64,000 nt of DNA, from assembly GCA_025201365.1 (NCBI GenBank), contig JAIXMF010000003.1:1426001-1490000 (forward strand), in the 5' to 3' direction. Both the position numbers and the translations under genes were made by a program. Positions 3,546 through 35,200 of this stretch are shown here, one piece after another. Origin of the DNA: Syncephalis plumigaleata (taxonomy: Eukaryota; Zoopagomycota; Zoopagomycetes; Zoopagales; Piptocephalidaceae). Each line of letters starts with the position of its first letter. The first letter of the stretch is position 1. The notes beneath the pieces were generated by a model. The model was not told where the DNA came from and did not search any database. It saw only the letters and a program-made list of their open reading frames with translations.

Positions 3546-4083
3546 CTACTTGAGTGGAGCGAAAATCTTGGGCACAGCCTAGAAATAAATAGATATATAA
3601 ATATTAGTTGGTGTATTTACATTGAATTGTCCATTAATAAAAGACGCGTCTATCATCAGTGTCGTCGTCGTCGTCGTCTACTTACACAAGCATCAACGCA
3701 GTGCATCAAATGGAAGAACTCCTCAACGCAATTTTCATTGGAACCGGCCTCGACACGTGCTGTGCATTCATCCAAGTGATGCTTGTATCCTACGCACTCG
3801 GCTGATTGCTCGCAGGCTTAAGCAATAACAATTGGAAATGATAAGCATATATATATGTATGTATGATGGTATAGGGACGCGTTATTATTAGTGAATTTCA
3901 AATACTAAACAAAAGGTATAACAAACTAGCTAAGAAGCAACACTTACCTTCTACTACCGCTGGCATATGATCTTCTGGGTCTTCTTCTTCCTCGGCTTCT
4001 TCAACAACTTCTACGACCTCCTCCTCTACTACAGCTTCTGCGTACACTGTAGGTAACCAGCTGCTTAGATCAAATAGTGTCAT
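3546..4083 (-). CDS. QCR6: Cytochrome b-c1 complex subunit 6 (hinge protein)
   Basis: Three minus-strand exons (3948-4083, 3686-3816, 3546-3578) splice to a 99-residue protein, phases matching at each GTAAGT donor. It is the acidic hinge subunit of mitochondrial complex III, which helps cytochrome c dock on cytochrome c1. The first exon supplies a short N-terminus and a long Glu run (VVEEEVVEVVEEAEEEEDPE). The second carries the twin-Cys signature: ACEQSAECVGYKHHLDEC, then NCVEEFFHLMHCVDAC. The third is the terminal AVPKIFAPLK. The spaced cysteines form the two disulfides of the helical hairpin. Most of it is too short per exon to appear as a single open frame. The identification is firm from the EEFFHLMHCVD block. 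Confidence 0.93.
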
Positions 4084-4478
4084 GGTAATATATATATCTC
4101 GATTCTGCTAAATGACCCTGATCACCGTTGAATCAGATGAATAAATAAGCAATCCAATAGGTGATGCTGTTGTTGTTGTTGTTGTTACTCGAACGAAAGA
4201 ATAGCTACGCAAATAAGAAAAGGTAGCAACAATGAGAGGTGGTAAAGAGAAACAGGAAGAGAGGAGAGAAAACGACACCACTTGATCAATTGGGTGGTCG
4301 TGATATGGCATCATTCCGATTCATTCCATGATTGAAATGATGATTATATGGGCAAACACTTTTTTGGAATTCATTCACGAAAAAAAAGGACATACACTTC
4401 ACTATGTGCACATATAATGTATACTGAGATATCTAATGAACATAATTTATTACCAAGTTGCTAAGAATGCTTGAATGC
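4084..4478. other. QCR6 upstream region and SNF4 3' flank
   Basis: Holds the presumed 5' region of QCR6, a short GTT-repeat stretch near 4168-4186, and the 3' flank of SNF4. No further coding evidence. Confidence 0.5.
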
Positions 4479-25279: not shown

Positions 25280-27852
25280 CTAATCGCGTGCTTGTATCGA
25301 TTTCAAAAGTGATGCACCGAATTCACTAATGGGCATGCTAGTCGATGCTCGCTCTCCTCTTTTTCGTATGGTGACCAGCTGCTTAGTGGCCTCTTGCTCG
25401 CCCAACACGAGTAGATAATTGTAGCGTAACTTTTCCGCTTGTCGTATCATCTTACCAAGACTATGTCCCGTGGTGTTTACATCCACATAGAGTGGCAATC
25501 CATACTGATCATGTAGCGTGGTCAATTGATGACGTACCTTGTGCGCGTAATCTACAAATGTACTCGCCACCGGACATATCATCACTTGACGTGGACTCTG
25601 CCATAATGGCCAGTCACCCGCGTAGTGTTCCGTGAGAATGGCCATCATTCGTTCTAGTGAACCCATAATAGCACGATGAATGATAACAGGTCGTACGTGT
25701 TGTTGTTGATTACTTTTCGTATCCGTGTATTTTAGATCGAAACGTTGTGGCAATTGGAAATCCAATTGAATCGTGGCCGTTTGATGTCTACGACCCAGTG
25801 CATCACTGATATAAATATCGATCTTGGGTCCGTAGAATGCACCATCACCTGGATTCACCTGCCATACTCGACCGGTGGCGTTTAATGCATCGGATAAGGC
25901 ACGCTCTGCCTCCTGCCAATCTTCTATACTACCAATATAATGCTGTTCAGGACGAGTGGACAGGTACAGCTCATATTGATCGAATTTCAACGTGGAATAA
26001 ATACGCTCCACCATATCGAGTGTCGAGCGTATCTCTTGACCGATTTGATCGTGTCGACAGAATATGTGCGCGTCATCTTGATGGAAATTACGTACACGCG
26101 TTAATCCAGATAAAGCACCGGCTGCTTCCCATCTAATTGATTGATGCATTAGTTAGTTACTTGATTATGACAACTATTAGTTATAATTCTGTTCTTCTAC
26201 TTCTTACCGATGAAGTGAACCGAAATCCGCGAAACGCAATGGTAATTCGTGTGCAGTACGTGGTTGCGAGGCATAAATCAAACAATGTGCAGGACAATTC
26301 ATCGGTTTCAATCCATACCAATCGACGGATGATGTCTTGTTACCATCAGCGATTGCCATTACTTCCGTTGTCGTGTCTGGTAGTCCACCACGTACTGCAA
26401 ACATATCCTCCGCGTAATTCTGCCAATGACCCGATTGTTCCCATAGTGCTTTCTTATAGATCATCGGTGTCATCACTTCATCATAGCCGAATCGACGGTA
26501 TTCCGAACGAAGAAACGAGAATAATCGCTCGACAATACGCGTGCCATGCGGTAGAAAGAAAGGACCACCGGGACTATTGACGTCAAAGTGGAATAGTTGC
26601 TGATTCGTGCCAATTACTCGATGATCACGTTGATGTGCCTGCTCCTGACTTTGTCGCCATTGCTGATACTTTAGTGCAGTTGGGAAAGTAACACCGGCTA
26701 CGCGAGTTATCTGCTGTTTCGCTCGTGCTTTATCACGTTCCGCCCACCAATGTCTAGCGGATACAGCGGTCAGCGTCGTATGCTGCAATAGATCGGTACG
26801 AGGTAGTAAAGGGCCGGATGCCACGTCGATATAATCACCAATACGGTAGAGTGGTATGACGGTCTTTTGTGCCGTGTAATTATGTCGAATGCGGTACACT
26901 TTGAGTGGATCATAGCTTAATAAATCAATGGCAGTCGCTAATGGTACATCAAGACGTTCAATGGGCAATGCCGCATTAATAATACTATTAACACGCTTTG
27001 TTAACGTCTTCAAATCATGCTCGCTAATATGTCGTACACTAGTGTCATTTAATAGTTGTGCTACACGCTCATAACAATCGTTCATCTCTTTCGCGGATGC
27101 TAGTATCTCGCGTAGTTGCGATTTAACATTATCACTCGATGTCGTCGATGATGATAACAACATGGAATCATAGGCAAAATTAGGTGCCCTACCGTCGCTA
27201 CTAACATCTATAGACCCTGCAATGATATCATTAGGATACTCGAGTGACAATGCTTTACCAAGTACCATGGCTGCTGAACTAGCGTAGAATGGTGTCACTA
27301 GCGTGTCATTCGCCGATAGAAAGGTGAGCGTATCATTCGATTGAGTAGTTGATGTTGTAGCACGATTAAGCAACGGTAACCCGCTAGTATTTAATGGTTG
27401 ATACAACTCCCATAGCTGACCACGGAACAAGGCACCTACTGTGCGTGGTAATAGTTCCGGATTCCAGTCTACGAATATCATACTATTAGTATAGATAGAA
27501 TGGTAATAAGTATTCAATGCAACACTGCTTACTTTCAAGTAGAGTATTTGGCGTGGTTATACCAGGCTGATATTCATATGTTTGTCCATCTGGTAGTGTA
27601 ATAGTTTGAGTGGTAGCGGTTGTCGTTGCACGCTGACTATAAAGCAATTTGTCTTTCTCTGCTGTCCATCGCGTAGATAATGAGGAATAATGGCGGTGTA
27701 GTTGAAATTGGTCTAGTAATGATAATATGATTCAATAGTATTGGCTGTTAGTCACGTCTGTTGATTATACTATTTACGTGTGTATACATACAAGTACAAG
27801 CAGTGCTCCTCCTGACCGATAAAGCGGTCGAGCTTCGGAGGATAGATAACAT
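25280..27852 (-). CDS. MST1: Mitochondrial threonyl-tRNA synthetase with degenerate editing domain
   Basis: Four exons (27792-27852, 27526-27712, 26208-27482, 25280-26132) give about 791 residues. The first 35 residues (MLSILRSSTALSVRRSTA then RHYSSLSTRW) look like a mitochondrial presequence. A TGS domain (ITLPDG...TTP), an N2 editing-like domain, the class II catalytic core (MTPMIYKKALWEQSGHW; MNCPAHC; GALSGLTRV; QDDAHIFCRHDQI) and a C-terminal anticodon-binding domain (VMICPV, GHSLGKMIRQAEK) follow. The editing pocket is altered: the usual HSSAH reads ASSAA (residues 150-154) and the usual C-R-G-P-H reads ASGPL (304-308). The boundary between exons 2 and 3 is uncertain: a GTAAGC donor breaks the frame and a GTGTTG donor 7 bp downstream keeps it. 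A Fanzor transposon ends 109 bp upstream of the ATG. Confidence 0.9.
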
Positions 27853-27962
27853 ACTGCAACGAGGAAAAAGTCGTAGAAAAGAAAAAGTCTGTAAAAAATA
27901 CACGTTATCACTCGTATTAACGCGGTATTATTAATAAAAATATTTACTACTTTAATGATGTA

Positions 27963-27988
27963 CAGGCTTTTTCCATCCAATTTGCGCA
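27963..27988 (+). repeat. Left terminal inverted repeat of the Fanzor transposon
   Basis: Preceded by TA (27961-27962). Homology to MITE A continues inward past the TIR to about 28028 (GTTAACACT), so about 65 bp of the left end are conserved between family members. Confidence 0.9.
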
Positions 27989-28104
27989 GTTAGCCTTCTG
28001 TTTTTACGAATAAATAATAGTTAACACTTACAAGTATTACTACTCCGTATTTTGGGTGCCATTGTCGTTTGGGCGACAGTGTGGCGGTTGACGATACAAC
28101 CTGG
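27963..28104 (-). ncRNA. Candidate Fanzor guide (omega) RNA region
   Basis: The 142 bp between the Fanzor stop codon and the transposon end lie where TnpB and Fanzor guide RNAs are known to be encoded: downstream of the nuclease gene, running to the element end, with the guide supplied by flanking DNA. Read on the minus strand it contains two short hairpins, GGTTG-N6-CAACC (28086-28101) and TGTCG-N6-CGACA (28063-28078), followed by the conserved terminal 65 bp. A transcript continuing past the end would carry flanking sequence starting CATCATTAAAG as its guide part. The hairpins are seen; transcription and function are inferred. Confidence 0.5.
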
Positions 28105-30471
28105 TTAATTTGTAATTTGTTGTTTGGATCCCTCTTGATCTTGATCTTCATTTAGTGAATTTTTTGCGGACGTACTAGGCTCAGGAGGAGGAACGGCACC
28201 TCGATGGAATTGTGTTGGAACACCCTTGTCCTTACGAACACTGCGAATAATCTGAATAAAATTCAGACATGCTGCCATATCCCGATTCCACAAACGATGA
28301 TCGTATCTTTTAAATTCCGGATCCTCTTTATAATCCACCTCCAGCTTGCCCTCTTGCTCCTCCTCGTCATCCACTTCCATCAGATCCTCTTGCTCCTCCT
28401 CGTCATCTACGTCCATCCTATCCTCTTGCTCCTCCTCGTCATCCACGTCCATCAGATCCTCTTGCTCCTTCTTAGCCTTTATATCTTTCATGGCTTTATT
28501 ACAAGTTTGATGTGTGCATCTAATAAAATAATTAATTAATATATTTAATAAATAGCAAAGTGTAATAAATTGTACTTACCTTAAAAGACCATGACAGATA
28601 ATTCTATGGCTGTCTCCATGTTGCTTCGACCGAGGATTCGCGACCTTCTTGAATTTCTCGAGGGTGGGATTGTTGCAGGCTGGGCAGCACTTGCTGGTCT
28701 TATGCTCGTCGATTAGAAAGACTTTAAACCCGTGTCGTTTCAAAAGCCTTCTAAAGCCAATACCACGTATGGGCTCGTGATATTTGGTGTGAGGAGCAGA
28801 CCAGTTCCCCATCACAAATGCTGCATCCCTATCGAACTTCTTCCTTAAGTCATCAATCAGCTTTTGATCACTTTGCTGCTTGCTGATGTAGGCTGACAAT
28901 TTCAACTTCCTGAAGAGAGGATGTTGGGCAGAATGGTCGGAGGGGAGGGTGAGAGTATCTCTGTAGAAGCTAGTAAGGACCTCCGAGTGCTGTGATCGGC
29001 GTTCCAGATATTTTTTATATTCCTGTAGAGATAAAGTGTTGCCCTTGGTTCCTGAGAGAGCCACCTCGGCCTGCTGCACCGCCAAATTCCCCTCCTTGCA
29101 GTCATCGCGAATCTTGCGGTATTTCTTCGTCCTCCGCATCTTGTCTTGATGTAGTTTCGTGTACCGATATTTGCGCTTATTTTCCACTGTCGAGTTTTCG
29201 TGTACACAAAACAGTAAGTTCCTTCTTCCCGGGTCCACCGCCACGCATTTGCCGTCGATTGCCTTGTGATCATCAGCTTTTAATTTACTGATATACGGGA
29301 AGGGATCCTTTGCTGATTTCGCTCCCCCTTCCTCGGTGACCTTCTCGATGCCCTTTTTGAGGACCGTGACACCAACGCCATCGGTCTCAATCGAGCCAGA
29401 AAACTCGAGCTCACCATCCTTTTGATCTCTGAATACCCTTCGATTGAGCTCCACGATTTCTCCCCAATGTTTCTTCTTTTTCTTCTTAAGGGCTTCCTTC
29501 CTCTCTTCATCGGTCCATTCCTTCTCCAATTCCTTCTGCTGATCAGTCTTCTTATCCTCATAACTGCGTCCTAATATGTTGTGGCAAAGAATAACTGTGT
29601 CGATATGAACGTAGCACGGCGAGAAGGATCGGCGCAAGGGAAAGCAGTTGAAAGGCTTCAAGTCGAGCTTCTTAAACAGACGCGCAAGTTCAAGGAACGC
29701 CTTAAAGTGCTTCACCGGGTGTTGTTTACAGTCGTAGTAAATGCCGTTTGTACCAAATTTGTAATCTTTACCGTAAGCATTTAAAACACCTTTGAATTTG
29801 TTGTATGCTCCAGCAAACATGCGACCCTCACCAGCCAACCTTTTAGGCCCGTCTCGCTGTACCATTGCTAGCTTGAATGTTCTTGCTGGCTCAGTGATTT
29901 TATTGGTTTTCTTGCGAATCACATCAGCGGTTACATCCTTGGGCAATCCATCCCTCATATCCTTTAACTTCTTCTTAACCTTGAAATGCTCGTTAATAGC
30001 GCGTCGAAGATGATCACCAAAACGCAATCGGACGTTGTTGGTGTAAGCGACGTACATCTTCCTTGCCTCATAGGTTGCTGATTGCTGAGCATAGGCCAAC
30101 TCTGGCTTTTTATAGCCAGTATGGACAAGGTAAGCTCTAACATGGTCGTCGAGGAACGCGCGATATCGACCTGTTTTCTCTTGAGGCCCGTGTGCTTTTT
30201 TGGGCTTGATTAAGGAGAGCCATACTTCTTTGAAAAAGTCTACACGGATATACTTCTCCATGTCAAAGTGCCGATTATGCTGCTGTTCAAGAAAAATGTA
30301 CTTTAGGAGCGAATAGGCATGGAAGGTCGTAGTATGTACGATGTTTACAAAATCGCGCAAAACATCGTGATGCTTCTTCCAACCAATGCCGGAAAGCGAG
30401 GACTTCACAGCCAGAACTCGTTCAATATCGGCAGAAGTAGACGAGCCATGAGTGCCTGGCTGTGACGCCAT
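28105..30471 (-). CDS. Fanzor RNA-guided nuclease (eukaryotic TnpB relative)
   Basis: Two exons (28580-30471, 28105-28519) joined by a 60-bp GTAAGT...TAG intron give 768 residues. The C-terminal half is a split RuvC nuclease: AVDPGRRNL (Asp414), the GNWSAPHTKYHEP block, DEHKTSKCCPAC (Glu589 just before the first zinc-finger cysteine pair), CHGLLRCTHQTC completing the zinc finger across the intron, and WNRDMAACLNF (Asp711). The Glu beside the TSK motif matches the rearranged catalytic site described for Fanzors. The N-terminal 400 residues are Lys-rich and helical, as in the family's guide- and DNA-binding part. An acidic 12-residue repeat separates the zinc finger from Asp711. No stop or shift interrupts it, so it looks intact. 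Its base composition appears less AT-rich than neighbouring genes. Confidence 0.93.
28333..28467 (-). repeat. 36-bp tandem repeat coding an acidic insert in Fanzor
   Basis: Nearly four copies of a 12-residue unit of the form EEEQEDLMDVDD, at about residues 649-693 of the protein, between the second zinc-finger cysteine pair and RuvC-III. Repeat copies differ at a few positions (R for L, E for D). Confidence 0.9.
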
Positions 30472-32124
30472 GAATAAAAGGGATATTATTCAATATAGAA
30501 GCAGTATGTTAAACGAGCACAGTTACAATATGAAGAGTTAATTAATCTTTTATTTTATTGTAGTATAGACGCTTCTTTATATACATGGCACGTTGGTAGT
30601 ACTAACTGCGTGGATCTGATGACGTAGGGGTGAAACGCTCGTGCAGACACATACAGGAAGGGTGAATCTATTATGGTAAGTAGTATCATTTACAGCGCAG
30701 CACAGTAAGACTCGTATCATCTAGTGTCATTGTAGCAATGGTATAACGCCGCTTAGAACACAGCAATCGGTAAGCATTAATAAGTACTAATGAACTTGTT
30801 AACACTTTATTAAATATATTCGTTATTAATAAATGAACAGAATTTTGTAATGGATGTTAATAGATGAATTAGCACTTATTAATGCTTCCATTAACAACTT
30901 CTCCTTATCTATTTGTTAACACTTGATTAATGGTCTATCAATCCACTCCAAGTATTCATTTCATTGCTGCTTCTCTTTCCCCTTTCCCCTTTACTTCATT
31001 ACCTACATTCTTTCCTCCTCCTTTACTTCGTTACCAATGATAATATATTTCCATTCCTCATTATCGACTGATGTATAAATTGTTAATTTTCTTTATTAGT
31101 CAATAAAAGCATTCTTTCTCTTTCTCTCTTTATCACTATGCTGTCTTTTTCGTACTAACCTCTTTTTCCTTGTCATTCAGTAACACACTTATTTGTGTCA
31201 ACTACATTCCACTTGTCAGTAAATAACACGCATCTACTTCCTCTTGACTATATGCTAGCTAGTTCTTTTACTTTTATTTACCTATTTACTTTCTCAGTAA
31301 TACGCGTCTTCTTCGTGTCATTCACATTCCACTTACTTCCTCTTTCACTTTAGCATACACATTCCCAATAGCAACTATTCTGCCATACTATCTCTATGCC
31401 TTTTATTTATCTCTTTGTTCTTCCTCTTGCTCTAAGCTATCTACATGCTCACTTGTCGTTATTATTACTATACCAATAAGTCTTGTTTATTGTTCGTTCT
31501 AGTCCTTTGTTCTCTATCACTGTCCTGCTTATTTATCAATGTTCAAGCGTTTACTGCTCTCGTTGTAATATGTACCATTTACTTTTACCACTCTTTTCCG
31601 TCATCTGTTTGTATGCCACCAATACGTCATGCTTTTATTTGTATTTTCATTTGTTTACTGCCATCTCCATACTCTATTTACTTACAAGCATACACTGCTT
31701 CTTCAAATAAACTGGCATACGTGTTCATGTACTCTTCCTTGCTCATTCCTTGCTCATTCGTGACAAATCAGTCATTCTACTATTTACTGCTTGTTTATTA
31801 CATTGTTTATCGTGTATTCTCTTTGTTCACTCGTTGCTACTCATATGCCATTAACCGTATGCATTATCATCATGATTTATCTATCATACTAGTTTATTGC
31901 TACTTGTAAGTACATGACATGGTAATATCCAACTATACTAGTACACTTGTATCATCTATCGTATAGAATTGATGATGATAGTTATCGCTATCAATAAATG
32001 ATCCATTACTAATACTGAATTGTTATTATTATCATGCTATATCAATTGGCATTTCTACGGTGATAATGGTGTTAACAATTGTGTAAATCTATCTATCAAT
32101 AAACCGCAAAAGTTAAAGGATAAA
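30472..32124. other. Non-coding interior of the Fanzor transposon
   Basis: Holds the Fanzor promoter side and about 1.6 kb of pyrimidine-rich DNA. A loosely repeated segment (CAGTAA-ACACG..., CATTCCACTT, CTTCCTCTT) recurs at about 31180-31245 and 31296-31350. The open frame at 31445-31909 is Leu/Ser/Phe-rich low complexity with no transposase DDE/D motif. No transposase is recognised. Confidence 0.6.
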
Positions 32125-32150
32125 TGCGCAAATTGGATGGAAAAACACTG
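32125..32150 (-). repeat. Right terminal inverted repeat of the Fanzor transposon
   Basis: Followed by TA (32151-32152). Homology to the matching end of MITEs A and D extends inward to about 32070 (GTTAACAATTGT). Confidence 0.9.
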
Positions 32151-32238
32151 TATTTTCATTCTTCTTCAGTACAAAGACTTTAATCGACTACAAATAGATA
32201 GGACTCATTGATAGTGTATGCTTCTTGTGCTTTTCTTT

Positions 32239-35200
32239 CTAAACAGCCATACGCTCCTGTTGTCTTGTGACGTAGCCCAGTTTATCCATAACTTCCTCGA
32301 GTTTTTTCTTTCTATCCATCAATTCTAATTGTTGTAGAACGCGGGGATTCTCCTTGGCAAATGCTAGTACGTGATCCTTGTCAAGTCCAAAGTAGAGTTT
32401 ACTATCGAGTTCGCGGGGGAATTGGAAAAAGAACTCGTTCAACAGTTCGACTTGCAAGAACATGACCGCAGCATTCGTCAGTTTATCGGCAACGAGATTA
32501 AGGAAAGCTTCTGGACATTGAGAACGATTCTTTCGATCACGGCATTGTTTGCCACGAAGTGCGGCATGTCGTAGTTTAAGCACGGTTGCACGATCTCGTA
32601 GGGATAGTGCTAGTTTTGCCTCCTCTAAGATAGCCGGACTCAATGACGCTTGACTTGATTCCGACTCGCCCTTTGTTTCGTTGTTCTCTTTTGTCGTTTC
32701 TGTACCTGTTGCGTTCGTTATTTTATTTTTTGTCGTCGTTGTCGTTGTTGTTGTTGCTGCACTATTCATAGTAGATGTTGACCTAGTGGATACTGGTGCA
32801 GGTTGTGGTGCATGCCAACCTAATGCCGCGGCATTATTGCTCGTCTCTTGAATGTAGTTAATGGCTGAGTTGAGCGTTCGTTTACCCACACGTGTATTGA
32901 TATCTTTCAATGCTCGTGCGCACATATCCATCTCTCGTTCTAATAGTTTGGTGGCACGTTCCACACTACTCTCCCATTCCGATTGAGTACAATCTACCTC
33001 GAATTTGAACGGCTTAATGGTATTCTCCACTTGATCCATGGCGAAATGGAATTTACGTCGAAGAATATCATTACCGAATCCCATTACGTTTCGTTGCGTG
33101 TCCGGATGATACGGGAACGGTTCAACCTCGACTAGTCGGGTCAGATTATGCTTCAGCACATCCATGACAAGCTGTGTGCTTAACCGACCGATACCACACT
33201 TGGTGAGAGAGGAGACGCCCACGTCCAGTTTATGCTGCCAGTAAAAGTCGTCGAGTGTCGATTTGGGTAGTTCCGATATTTTCCGATCGGACCAGTAAAT
33301 ACGCGCGCAAATGTCGAGGGCACGCTGCTCCAACATCGTTCTAACCGATGTACGCACGGTGGATCGATCAAATTGATGCGAGAACTGCTTGAACGCTTGC
33401 TTCAACGTGTCCAGCGAGTCGGCCGCGTAGGATTCCGCGCTTATGGGTCGATCATTATAGTGGACCTTGTACTGGTAGCGTGTCTCGTCTAGTTCTGCCT
33501 GTACCGCATCGACAATACGATGAAGATTACGTCGCATATTCTCTTCGAGTACTTTGATCAGTTTTCTCTTCAAAAAGTCCGTGCCAACTTGCAAATCGGG
33601 TTGACGATACTCTTCATGCTCTTGAAAGTAGGCGTTTCCCGCTTTAATAAGCTCCTTCGATGACGTGGAACGCGATTTCCGCTGTCTACTCACGACACCA
33701 ACATAGCCGAGCATAAGTGGGTAGTCTTGATTACGTAGTATTTCTACGCCATCCGTCGGAGGAACGAGATCCATCTTAGTGAGCACACCAATGGTACGTA
33801 CACCTAGTGGGTCGGCGCGTCGACTGGCCAGCAGAGCCTCGGAATTGGCGAGATCGACATCGGCCGCACAAACGGCTAGAATGATGTTCGGTTCACGGAT
33901 GTACGCCTCGCATAATGAGGCAATTTTCTGTTTAAGCATTTCTGGCTGCTTTCGATTATGTACCTGAATATAACCCGGTAGATCGACCAATGTTAGATCC
34001 GGTACATTTGGCGAGTAGATACGCAATTCAATGGGATCGGCAGAGATACACTCTTCATCTGATACTGCCAGATTTAGATCGGTTAACGTTTGGCGAATTC
34101 GTGAAAAGTCTTTTAGTTTGCCAAGTCCTAGTTGTGGAAATTCGCCATACTCCTCCTTTGATTCCGGCGTATGAATCAGTGTAAGCTCGATGGGACGACG
34201 TGTCACCATGTTGGATCCCCTATTAGACGAGGATAACGCGTATGTGTGTACGTGTACGTGTACGTGTAAGTCATTAGTATAGTGCAATAATAATAATAAT
34301 AATAATAAGTATCCACTTACTTTGGTAAGAATTCATTGCCAACAATTGCCTCTAATACGGAGCTCTTACCCGAGCTTTGCGATCCAATAACCACAATACT
34401 CGGTAGTTGTAATGTGCCATCATGTTTGACCGTTTTCAATAAATTACGTATTTCAATCAGTGTACGGGTTAGTGCCATGAACTCGGTGCTTCCTTGATCG
34501 GATTCCCCGTTGCCTGGCTCTTGTTCATCGCGAGTACGCAGACCAGCACCAAATGCTGCCACTGCAGCTATTACTGATGTTGGCGGTGTATCGGAAGGTT
34601 GATTACTATTGCCACTATTGCCGCTATCATCATTACTGCCGCTGTTGCTATCACTGCTACTACTACTGCTGCTGCTGCTGCTACCCATCAAGTCCCTATT
34701 ATATCGAGCTGCTTCTGATATGTAAACATCTCGATTTAATGTATCATCATTGCCATTCTGACCGAAACTTGGCAAATGCCAGTCTGCATTGGCAATCGAA
34801 CTAAATACACCTTTAGCATCGGATACAAGCTCGGGTAGCCAGCTTGGTGTGATTTTCTCCGAGAATTCTATCAATAGCCAGCCGAATGAACCACGTTAGC
34901 TATGACGTGATATCCACGCGAGATTCACTCGTCTACTATCAACTTACCATGAAGTTTGTAGTTAGCATAGCCCGCTGCGCCAGCACCCACACCAAAGACG
35001 GTAATCGGGAAGCGGAACATCTGGAACAGGTAGCGCGGTGTCGACATGAACGAGATCGTTCGCGCGTGACGAGGCACGCCAACTAGTGCAACCGTAGAGG
35101 GTCGTGCCGTGGCCAGCAGACTGAGCTCGTGCGAACTCCTCCGGTGCACGGCTATATGCTGGCTCGTAATCAGTCTACCGCGTGTCGCATCCGACCTTCT

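Follow-up and report, generated by a model that had tools for sequence, protein, structure and literature searches.

A stretch of 64,000 nucleotides from the fungus Syncephalis plumigaleata (contig JAIXMF010000003.1 of assembly GCA_025201365.1, positions 1,426,001 to 1,490,000 of the forward strand), hereafter the window, contains a transposon-like element of 4,188 bp whose only recognised gene encodes a Fanzor RNA-guided nuclease. The element occupies positions 27963-32150 between two TA target duplications, boundaries that can be read directly in the window and that bear out those proposed, together with CAG-starting inverted repeats, in an earlier note made from this sequence. The same ends are marked by a 63-nt inverted pair (I1, 27961-28023/32090-32152), the longest of 18 inverted pairs in the region. 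The terminal inverted repeats are 26 bp in length and share a common core, preceded by five bases of which the fourth and fifth differ (CAGGC on the 3' side, CAGTG on the 5' side). The terms 5' and 3' refer here to the Fanzor gene. The features of the element and its flanks are as follows.

27941..27960, minus strand: predicted 20-nt guide (flank beyond the TA), by analogy with published Fanzor and TnpB loci (PMC10711439)
27961..27962, no strand: TA target duplication on the Fanzor-3' side, read directly
27963..27988, no strand: 3' terminal repeat of CAGGC type, CAGGC followed by the core TTTTTCCATCCAATTTGCGCA (ending GCCTG on the minus strand)
27963..28104, minus strand: predicted guide-RNA scaffold (omega RNA, or right-end element RNA, reRNA), running from directly behind the stop codon as far as the end of the element, proposed from its position and a covarying hairpin
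27963..28302, minus strand: element positions 3849-4188 (coding end and guide-RNA end), kept in derivatives of about 597 bp
28086..28101, minus strand: stem-loop GGTTG-TATCGT-CAACC, its pairing kept while both arms change in diverged copies
28105..28519, minus strand: Fanzor1 exon 2 (remainder of the zinc finger, acidic repeats, RD motif, stop codon at 28105)
28322..28465, minus strand: tandem array of acidic 12-residue repeats, after the zinc finger and before RD
28520..28579, minus strand: intron of 60 nt, GT-AG (GTAAGT...TTATTAG)
28580..30471, minus strand: Fanzor1 exon 1 (D413, E589 and the first zinc cysteines)
30472..32124, minus strand: 5' non-coding region of the element
31899..32150, minus strand: element positions 1-252, kept in derivatives of about 597 bp
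32125..32150, no strand: 5' terminal repeat of CAGTG type, CAGTG followed by the core, the inverted partner of the 3' repeat
32151..32152, no strand: TA target duplication on the Fanzor-5' side, read directly
32151..32153, minus strand: predicted target-adjacent motif (TAM), ATA on the minus strand, proposed from the flank signature and the TAM of PpFz1 described below

The Fanzor is a two-exon gene on the minus strand whose spliced product has 768 residues, the length given in the earlier note. Its RuvC D-E-D triad is complete (D413, E589 and D711); the glutamate and the last aspartate had been numbered correctly, whereas the first aspartate, previously placed at residue 414, is residue 413. 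The zinc finger is likewise complete, as had been stated, with cysteines C596/C599 and C632/C637. In a phmmer search against the PDB the protein matched Fanzor1 of Parasitella parasitica (PpFz1, E 2.1e-110), the closest among solved structures (9cf0-9cf3), and, at lower similarity, that of Spizellomyces punctatus (SpuFz1, E 1.3e-37). Three blocks align with PpFz1, and the DPGRR, DE..TS, zinc-finger and WNRD stretches fall within them; a part of PpFz1 lying between the blocks, about 110 residues long and the probable place of its FRI domain, has no counterpart in the window protein, which instead carries acidic repeats before RD. The match to Fanzor/TnpB that the note had put forward as a check was therefore obtained with PDB Fanzor1 but not with Pfam, in which the TNB/OrfB zinc-ribbon profile PF07282 reached 16 bits, below its cut-off of 26.3, and found nothing in a six-frame search of the genome. 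This miss is outweighed by the PDB match; the profile is of the TnpB/Cas12f type. The annotation PF26935 is precomputed on 16 of 17 protein-database matches. The TS, C4 finger and RD motifs of the 2013 definition are all present; the last cysteine and RD are 72 residues apart (5-50 in that definition) because of an acidic insertion, and the number of acidic 12-residue repeats (EEEQEDLMDVDD) at 28322-28465 differs among copies. The top matches outside S. plumigaleata in the protein database are Mucor proteins with 37-41% identity, and a tree of 22 genome copies and seven outside proteins places the genome copies on one side of a branch with support 79/97, in an analysis with long-branch warnings and with one row (L048) extended past its exon. 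Membership of Fanzor1 is secure, and we regard it as nearly certain.

Two features expected of Tc1/mariner elements, a TA target duplication and terminal inverted repeats, are found in the window copy, and TA directly precedes the 5' repeat in 30 of 32 long derivatives described below. The earlier description of the element as Tc1/mariner-type stands with respect to these TA duplications and CAG-starting repeats, which are the whole basis of the label, but not with respect to a transposase. The DDE_3 profile gave 31 matches in the genome, and at none of the seven loci examined were the repeats of this family present; the DDE_1 and Transposase_1 profiles gave no genomic matches, but the controls of both were also silent. 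Because no transposase with these repeats was found, the element looks non-autonomous, with 'Mariner-type ends' rather than the make-up of an autonomous Tc1/mariner member.

The window element belongs to a large family. At two mismatches or fewer the genome contains the repeat core 949 times (476+473), with none for a reversed control, which corresponds to roughly 475 elements if each has two ends. The genome search with terminal repeats suggested in the earlier note thus uncovered several hundred further elements but no empty allele of the exact window site, the second copy of which, on contig C61, carries the same element. A search with Fanzor exon 1 returned at least 83 matching pieces, and from the two counts it would follow that most elements lack a Fanzor; with the 144-bp 3' end as query, 40 copies were scored of 565 candidates. 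Thirty loci were excised from the exon-1 matches, and in 22 of them, some being second copies of one locus (for example L032/L033), exon 1 is open over 610 residues or more. Splicing runs through to the RD motif in 21 of these 22 near-complete copies, a 60-61-nt intron lies at the same place in 21, in support of the intron noted earlier, and the triad and zinc cysteines are all kept in 20. Pairwise ratios of non-synonymous to synonymous divergence (dN/dS) fall below 1 in 231 of 231 pairs (0.15-0.59, with dS up to 0.84), and the medians in three dS bins are 0.37, 0.43 and 0.36. The Fanzor copies are thus under purifying selection, the exact dN/dS values being rough because copies exchange sequence.

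That we are dealing with a dead or decayed relic, or with an error of assembly, is very improbable. Some other copies are broken: in L047 a lysine replaces the catalytic glutamate (LIDKYMTS) in an otherwise open frame, the intron of L034 carries a Tc1-like insertion, and further copies contain stops. The window copy, however, is intact and lies between other genes on a 1.95-Mb contig; it is found again on C61, and an open relative shares 98% identity with it. These facts contradict such a reading. The C61 copy was considered as a decayed allele and rejected, as its stops are gaps near the contig end and the locus copy is 99% identical.

Two observations on non-coding sequence belong beside these counts. 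The intron of the window copy (28520-28579) and those of 19 other copies show a median difference of about 3% (about 0.033) at every coding distance, in bins of 4-fold distance up to 0.25-0.40, L048 having dropped out of this comparison; across L031-L060 the divergence of the non-coding ends is nearly flat against coding divergence, a pattern that exchange of ends between copies would produce, in a comparison with a wrong exon end in one row (L048). Intron conservation was rejected as proof of function, given that the non-coding ends behave alike, that exchange may explain both and that the copies were chosen by exact intron ends.

Derivatives were studied at 38 distinct sites with both flanks. 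Those of about 597 bp join element positions 1-252 to 3849-4188, and those of about 1.1 kb combine smaller end pieces with sequence from around the intron. Of the derivatives of 500-1300 bp, 31 of 32 retain GTAAGT, a motif of the guide-RNA end (the exception is L097); of the short ones of less than 300 bp, none of six does. A 606-bp derivative in L028 (1503-2108) has the first five bases of the CAGGC, or guide-RNA, type at both ends. These distributions bear on the proposal that a role for the host, or the control of other elements, accounts for the retention of the Fanzor (gene regulation, defence or silencing), the flank signature described below being incidental. Conserved coding capacity speaks for it, and the published role of Fanzor is given as unknown in a report that also describes 'ghost' loci and considers that Fanzor may act in trans (PMC10432273). 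The copies, however, are scattered, bounded by repeats and exchanged between sites, and it is in many mobile derivatives, not at one fixed locus, that the guide-RNA-like end has been retained; this proposal is considered unlikely.

The stretch 27963-28104 is predicted to be the scaffold of a guide RNA. A hairpin with a TATCG-containing loop recurs directly after the stop codon, with 5-8 pairs in most segments, and its native halves fold with a mean of -5.79 kcal/mol against -4.00 for swapped halves (28 unique segments; none of 2000 shuffles as low), a significance that is inflated by kinship of the copies and was computed with a few segments cut at a shifted start. The covarying hairpin in this guide-RNA-like 3' region supports the guide region named in the earlier note. 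Rfam gave no match for the guide-RNA end. Omega RNAs of Fz1 have a common first stem-loop of seven pairs, and that of PpFz1 measures 75 nt against about 142 nt for the scaffold predicted here (PMC11423790); in some systems flank bases belong to the scaffold (PMC10711439).

The best explanation of the family, which we hold with confidence evenly balanced for and against, is that the Fanzor cuts unoccupied versions of its own sites and of those of its derivatives and so favours their retention. Three signs of RNA-guided activity speak for it, all described below: the base preference in the 5' flank, the duplications at 5' junctions, and second copies of loci that hold another element or, where element-free, are scarred. 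The sequence itself shows the anatomy, the selection, the covarying hairpin, the flank asymmetry and the junction duplications; guide-RNA production, cutting and the route of repair are what we infer here. A transposase acting in trans would move the element ends. The Fanzor would bind an RNA whose source is the 3' end either of a Fanzor copy or of a derivative that lacks the gene but retains this end, with the flank directly outside the element as its guide, and would cut those copies of the site that lack the element and adjoin an (A/C)TA TAM. Repair would then copy the element in from the occupied copy of the locus: with the cut falling in the part matched by the guide, the distal end would share homology with the 3' flank of the occupied copy and could prime synthesis through the element toward its 5' end. 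Were this repair one-sided, synthesis would stop near the 5' end of the element, the TAM-side stump would retain TA and a few target bases, and microhomology end-joining would leave a target duplication at the 5' junction only. More tentatively, the family may represent natural RNA-guided homing of a TA-targeting transposon, with service in trans to hundreds of Fanzor-less derivatives, an imprint of the TAM and one-sided fossils of copy-in.

The flanks of the elements differ between the two sides. Among the matches listed for flank patterns with a leading W (100 of 160 5'-type and 100 of 155 3'-type ends), A precedes TA in 63/100 on the 5' side and 30/100 on the 3' side, or by unique 6-mers in 50/78 and 23/84 (Fisher p about 4e-6), and the 3' side lies near the background of the window, in which the proportion of A before TA is 0.335. 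The 5' flanks of 23 Fanzor copies read ATA in 17 cases, CTA in five and TTA in one, in a set where five flanks are assigned to a copy by position only and L032 and L033 are one site. As the TAM of PpFz1 is 5'-ATN-3' (PMC11423790), ATA is the flank to be expected of a TA-inserting element with a PpFz1-like Fanzor, and the signature found here fits it.

The same flanks must be considered with the Fanzor as a passenger, the main rival account, which we judge possible but somewhat doubtful: a TA-specific transposase would explain spread and flank preference, one-ended 5' cuts with repair from an element-free homologue and microhomology would yield the junctions described next, and ectopic conversion the exchanges between sites. 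The TA duplications and the near-identical repeat cores at both ends speak for it, as does the decoupling of non-coding end divergence from coding divergence. Purifying selection on the Fanzor copies speaks against it, as do flank and junction signals that are one-sided despite the same repeat cores and the failure to find a transposase with these repeats, a search in which two of three profiles had silent controls.

Ends of aberrant structure are concentrated on the 5' side. These were defined by an exact core, a first base other than C and a leading position other than G, with distinct sites grouped by repeated flanks; as an intact core was required, deeper truncations would escape the set. 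There are 17 5'-type and four 3'-type ends, or 14 and two by distinct site (p 0.004 if the types are equally common). The 3'-type ends begin with T (TAGAC three times, TAGGC) and show nothing more complex, whilst several 5'-type ends carry, between the flanking TA and the repeat, the opening 4-9 nt of the 3' flank of the same element, as in the following loci.

L112: 5' junction GATA|AAAAGTG|TTTTTCC; 3' flank TA|AAAAGTGCG
L117: 5' junction AACTA|TTGTG; 3' flank TA|TTGTGGAG
L038: 5' junction AATA|ATGTG; 3' flank TA|ATGTGCG
L099: 5' junction AACTA|TAAAAGG; 3' flank TA|TAAAAGGTTC
L118: 5' junction CTGCGGA, the 5' TA reading TG; 3' flank TA|CTGCGGGTT
L001: 5' junction CATA|GAATG; 3' flank TA|GAATGTTG; found before the set was defined

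The first cases were noticed by eye before any test, and the defined set then gave 14 distinct sites, eight of them testable in that their 3' flank is known. Prefix matches to the own 3' flank sum to 33 nt over these eight ends against 6.0 after shuffling (23 of 200,000 shuffles as high), and to 42 against 6.8 over 11 ends when three found earlier are added (1 of 200,000), with the start of the insert fixed while the 3' flank was in view, a choice that favours a match. The longest shared string, a test free of such choice, sums to 50 against a shuffled mean of 30.5 for the eight ends (4 of 50,000 as high), 67 against 40.3 for the 11 (0 of 50,000) and 42 against 24.7 for the six ends with a 12-nt flank (59 of 50,000). 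At two loci a target duplication in one copy stands against a clean 5' end in the other. L035 has a normal 5' end at the same TA at which L112 is scarred (C179/C362); L052 has a normal CAGTG end and the 3' flank TA-CATAAGCAATTT, and its second copy, C354, which lies outside the tested sets, has the 5' junction TA-CATAAGCGA-CTTTCC and its own 3' flank (L041) TA-AATAAGCGATTT. In L038, L117 and L112 the repeat restarts at GTG with only the terminal CA lost; a staggered cut by a transposase, as in Tc1 chemistry, would account for this, and to this extent the observation favours the Fanzor as passenger.

Candidate truncations were also followed. L007 was rejected as a copy-in truncation, as its upstream sequence is unlike the 5' flank of the other copy and the two are comparable on the 3' side only. 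L037 was rejected as a 5' truncation, because its 5' end is of CAGGC type and lacks a single T, at ATTA, and so was L040, in which element-like sequence continues upstream and the break is not clean. L088 breaks off near element position 84.

Second copies of loci are often found on small contigs and may be either alleles or duplicates. Substitution levels in flank and element were compared for six pairs.

L006/L008: flank 0.16%, element 3.2%
L010/L016: flank 1.1%, element 5.2%
L019/L027: flank 0.6%, element 4.1%
L032/L033: flank 0.35%, element 3.0%, in patches
L024/L025: flank 0.9%, element 0 (opposite pattern)
Window/C61: flank 1.6%, element 0 (opposite pattern)

Between L032 and L033, at the same site, runs of zero differences alternate with runs of 10-14 per 100 bases, a mosaic that suggests gene conversion. 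At other sites the two copies hold different elements.

L003/L094: one TA, 597 and 227 bp
L012/L113: one TA, 597 and 548 bp
L035/L112: one TA, a Fanzor and a 583-bp derivative
L005/L007: a Fanzor and a derivative, comparable on the 3' side only

Element content is thus exchanged while sites persist, for which ordinary ectopic conversion may be enough. Queries made of joined flanks found a second copy for six of 12 loci, three occupied and three element-free, and all three of the element-free copies are scarred.

C136: two changed bases directly after the TA, and others
C325: a remnant of the repeat, 14 nt long, and loss of flank at a CCAT microhomology
C307: about 26 extra bases between two TAs

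Several of these results weigh against retention by Fanzor cutting. With three of six second copies element-free, any drive is incomplete, and the elements at doubly occupied sites often differ, so that the present neighbour is not the template. The prefix match is 0 nt at C101:342497 and L047, 1 nt at C90:8441 and 2 nt at L116, and L007 is truncated at about element position 70 without a target duplication. A one-ended 5' break by transposase, repaired from an element-free homologue, could give the same duplications, and only their sidedness argues otherwise. For the flanks, a Fanzor-less Tc1 family of the same genome, used as a control, has A seven times, C five, G twice and T once before TA (15 ends); this lean to A/C (12/15, p 0.04), seen at both ends in a control that is small and not clean, is shared with the Fanzor family and favours the passenger account. 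The taste of a transposase may give part of the flank signal, its asymmetry being left unexplained. Finally, ATA is found in 3/6 short derivatives, which lack the guide-RNA region, against 23/30, the 23 including L099 (otherwise read as CTA); the short derivatives are too few to show whether the bias is lost.

Fanzor1 genes in Mariner-type elements without a transposase are already known: those surveyed by Bao and Jurka in 2013, for example PUl-4, likewise have Fanzor as their sole gene, TA duplications and Mariner-like repeats, whereas the host and the copy structure found here do not appear in the part of that survey covered (PMC3627910). In S. punctatus, as here, Fanzor1 lies in repeat-bounded elements for which a transposase was not found, and omega-RNA loci without protein, the 'ghost' loci, are present (PMC10432273); in S. 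plumigaleata, by contrast, the derivatives apparently number in the hundreds, judged from the repeat-core count, and show signatures in their flanks and at their junctions. In one alga, a Fanzor element is the repeat of highest abundance (PMC12633428). The logic proposed here, in which the insertion site supplies the guide and sites without the element are cut, is that of TnpB retention in IS200/IS605 elements ('peel, paste and copy') and of plasmid drive, which differ in being bacterial, in using another transposase chemistry and in having been demonstrated by experiment (PMC11870625), where the present case is argued from sequence. No report of a TAM imprint or of copy-in junctions in a eukaryotic transposon appeared in the titles and abstract openings of the Fanzor literature, and no paper on Fanzor in Syncephalis in the literature searched, both with few subscription papers covered. 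If correct, the proposal would bring a eukaryotic cut-and-paste transposon within the scope of TnpB-style retention and would offer an explanation for ghost guide-RNA loci. Marked insertion sites number several hundred in this genome, alongside many intact copies of the nuclease, paired copies of loci, and Fanzor-less derivatives that either keep or lack the guide-RNA region.

Further features of the window and of the family are minor. Neither of the two open reading frames (ORFs) of the 5' region tested, at 31445-31906 and 31483-31707 on the plus strand, matched Pfam. The neighbouring ORF at 26204-27538 (minus strand) is tRNA-synthetase-like, at 27.4 bits slightly below the Pfam cut-off, and that at 32239-34287 (minus strand) is an MGM1-like dynamin. 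L068, with 4.2 kb between two repeats, was considered as an autonomous copy and rejected, being a derivative into which a long reverse-transcriptase-like ORF has been inserted; the insertion (L068:169-3594) splits the derivative, and its 1141-residue ORF resembles, as judged by eye, a reverse transcriptase of non-LTR (long terminal repeat) type with RNase H. A Tc1 element whose perfect repeats are 213 nt long (CAGTGAGGGAAAG..., as seen in L066) and which has a 380-residue frame lies inside the Fanzor gene of L050, and a Tc1 end related to that of L050 (CAGTGGGGGAAAA...) sits in the intron of L034.

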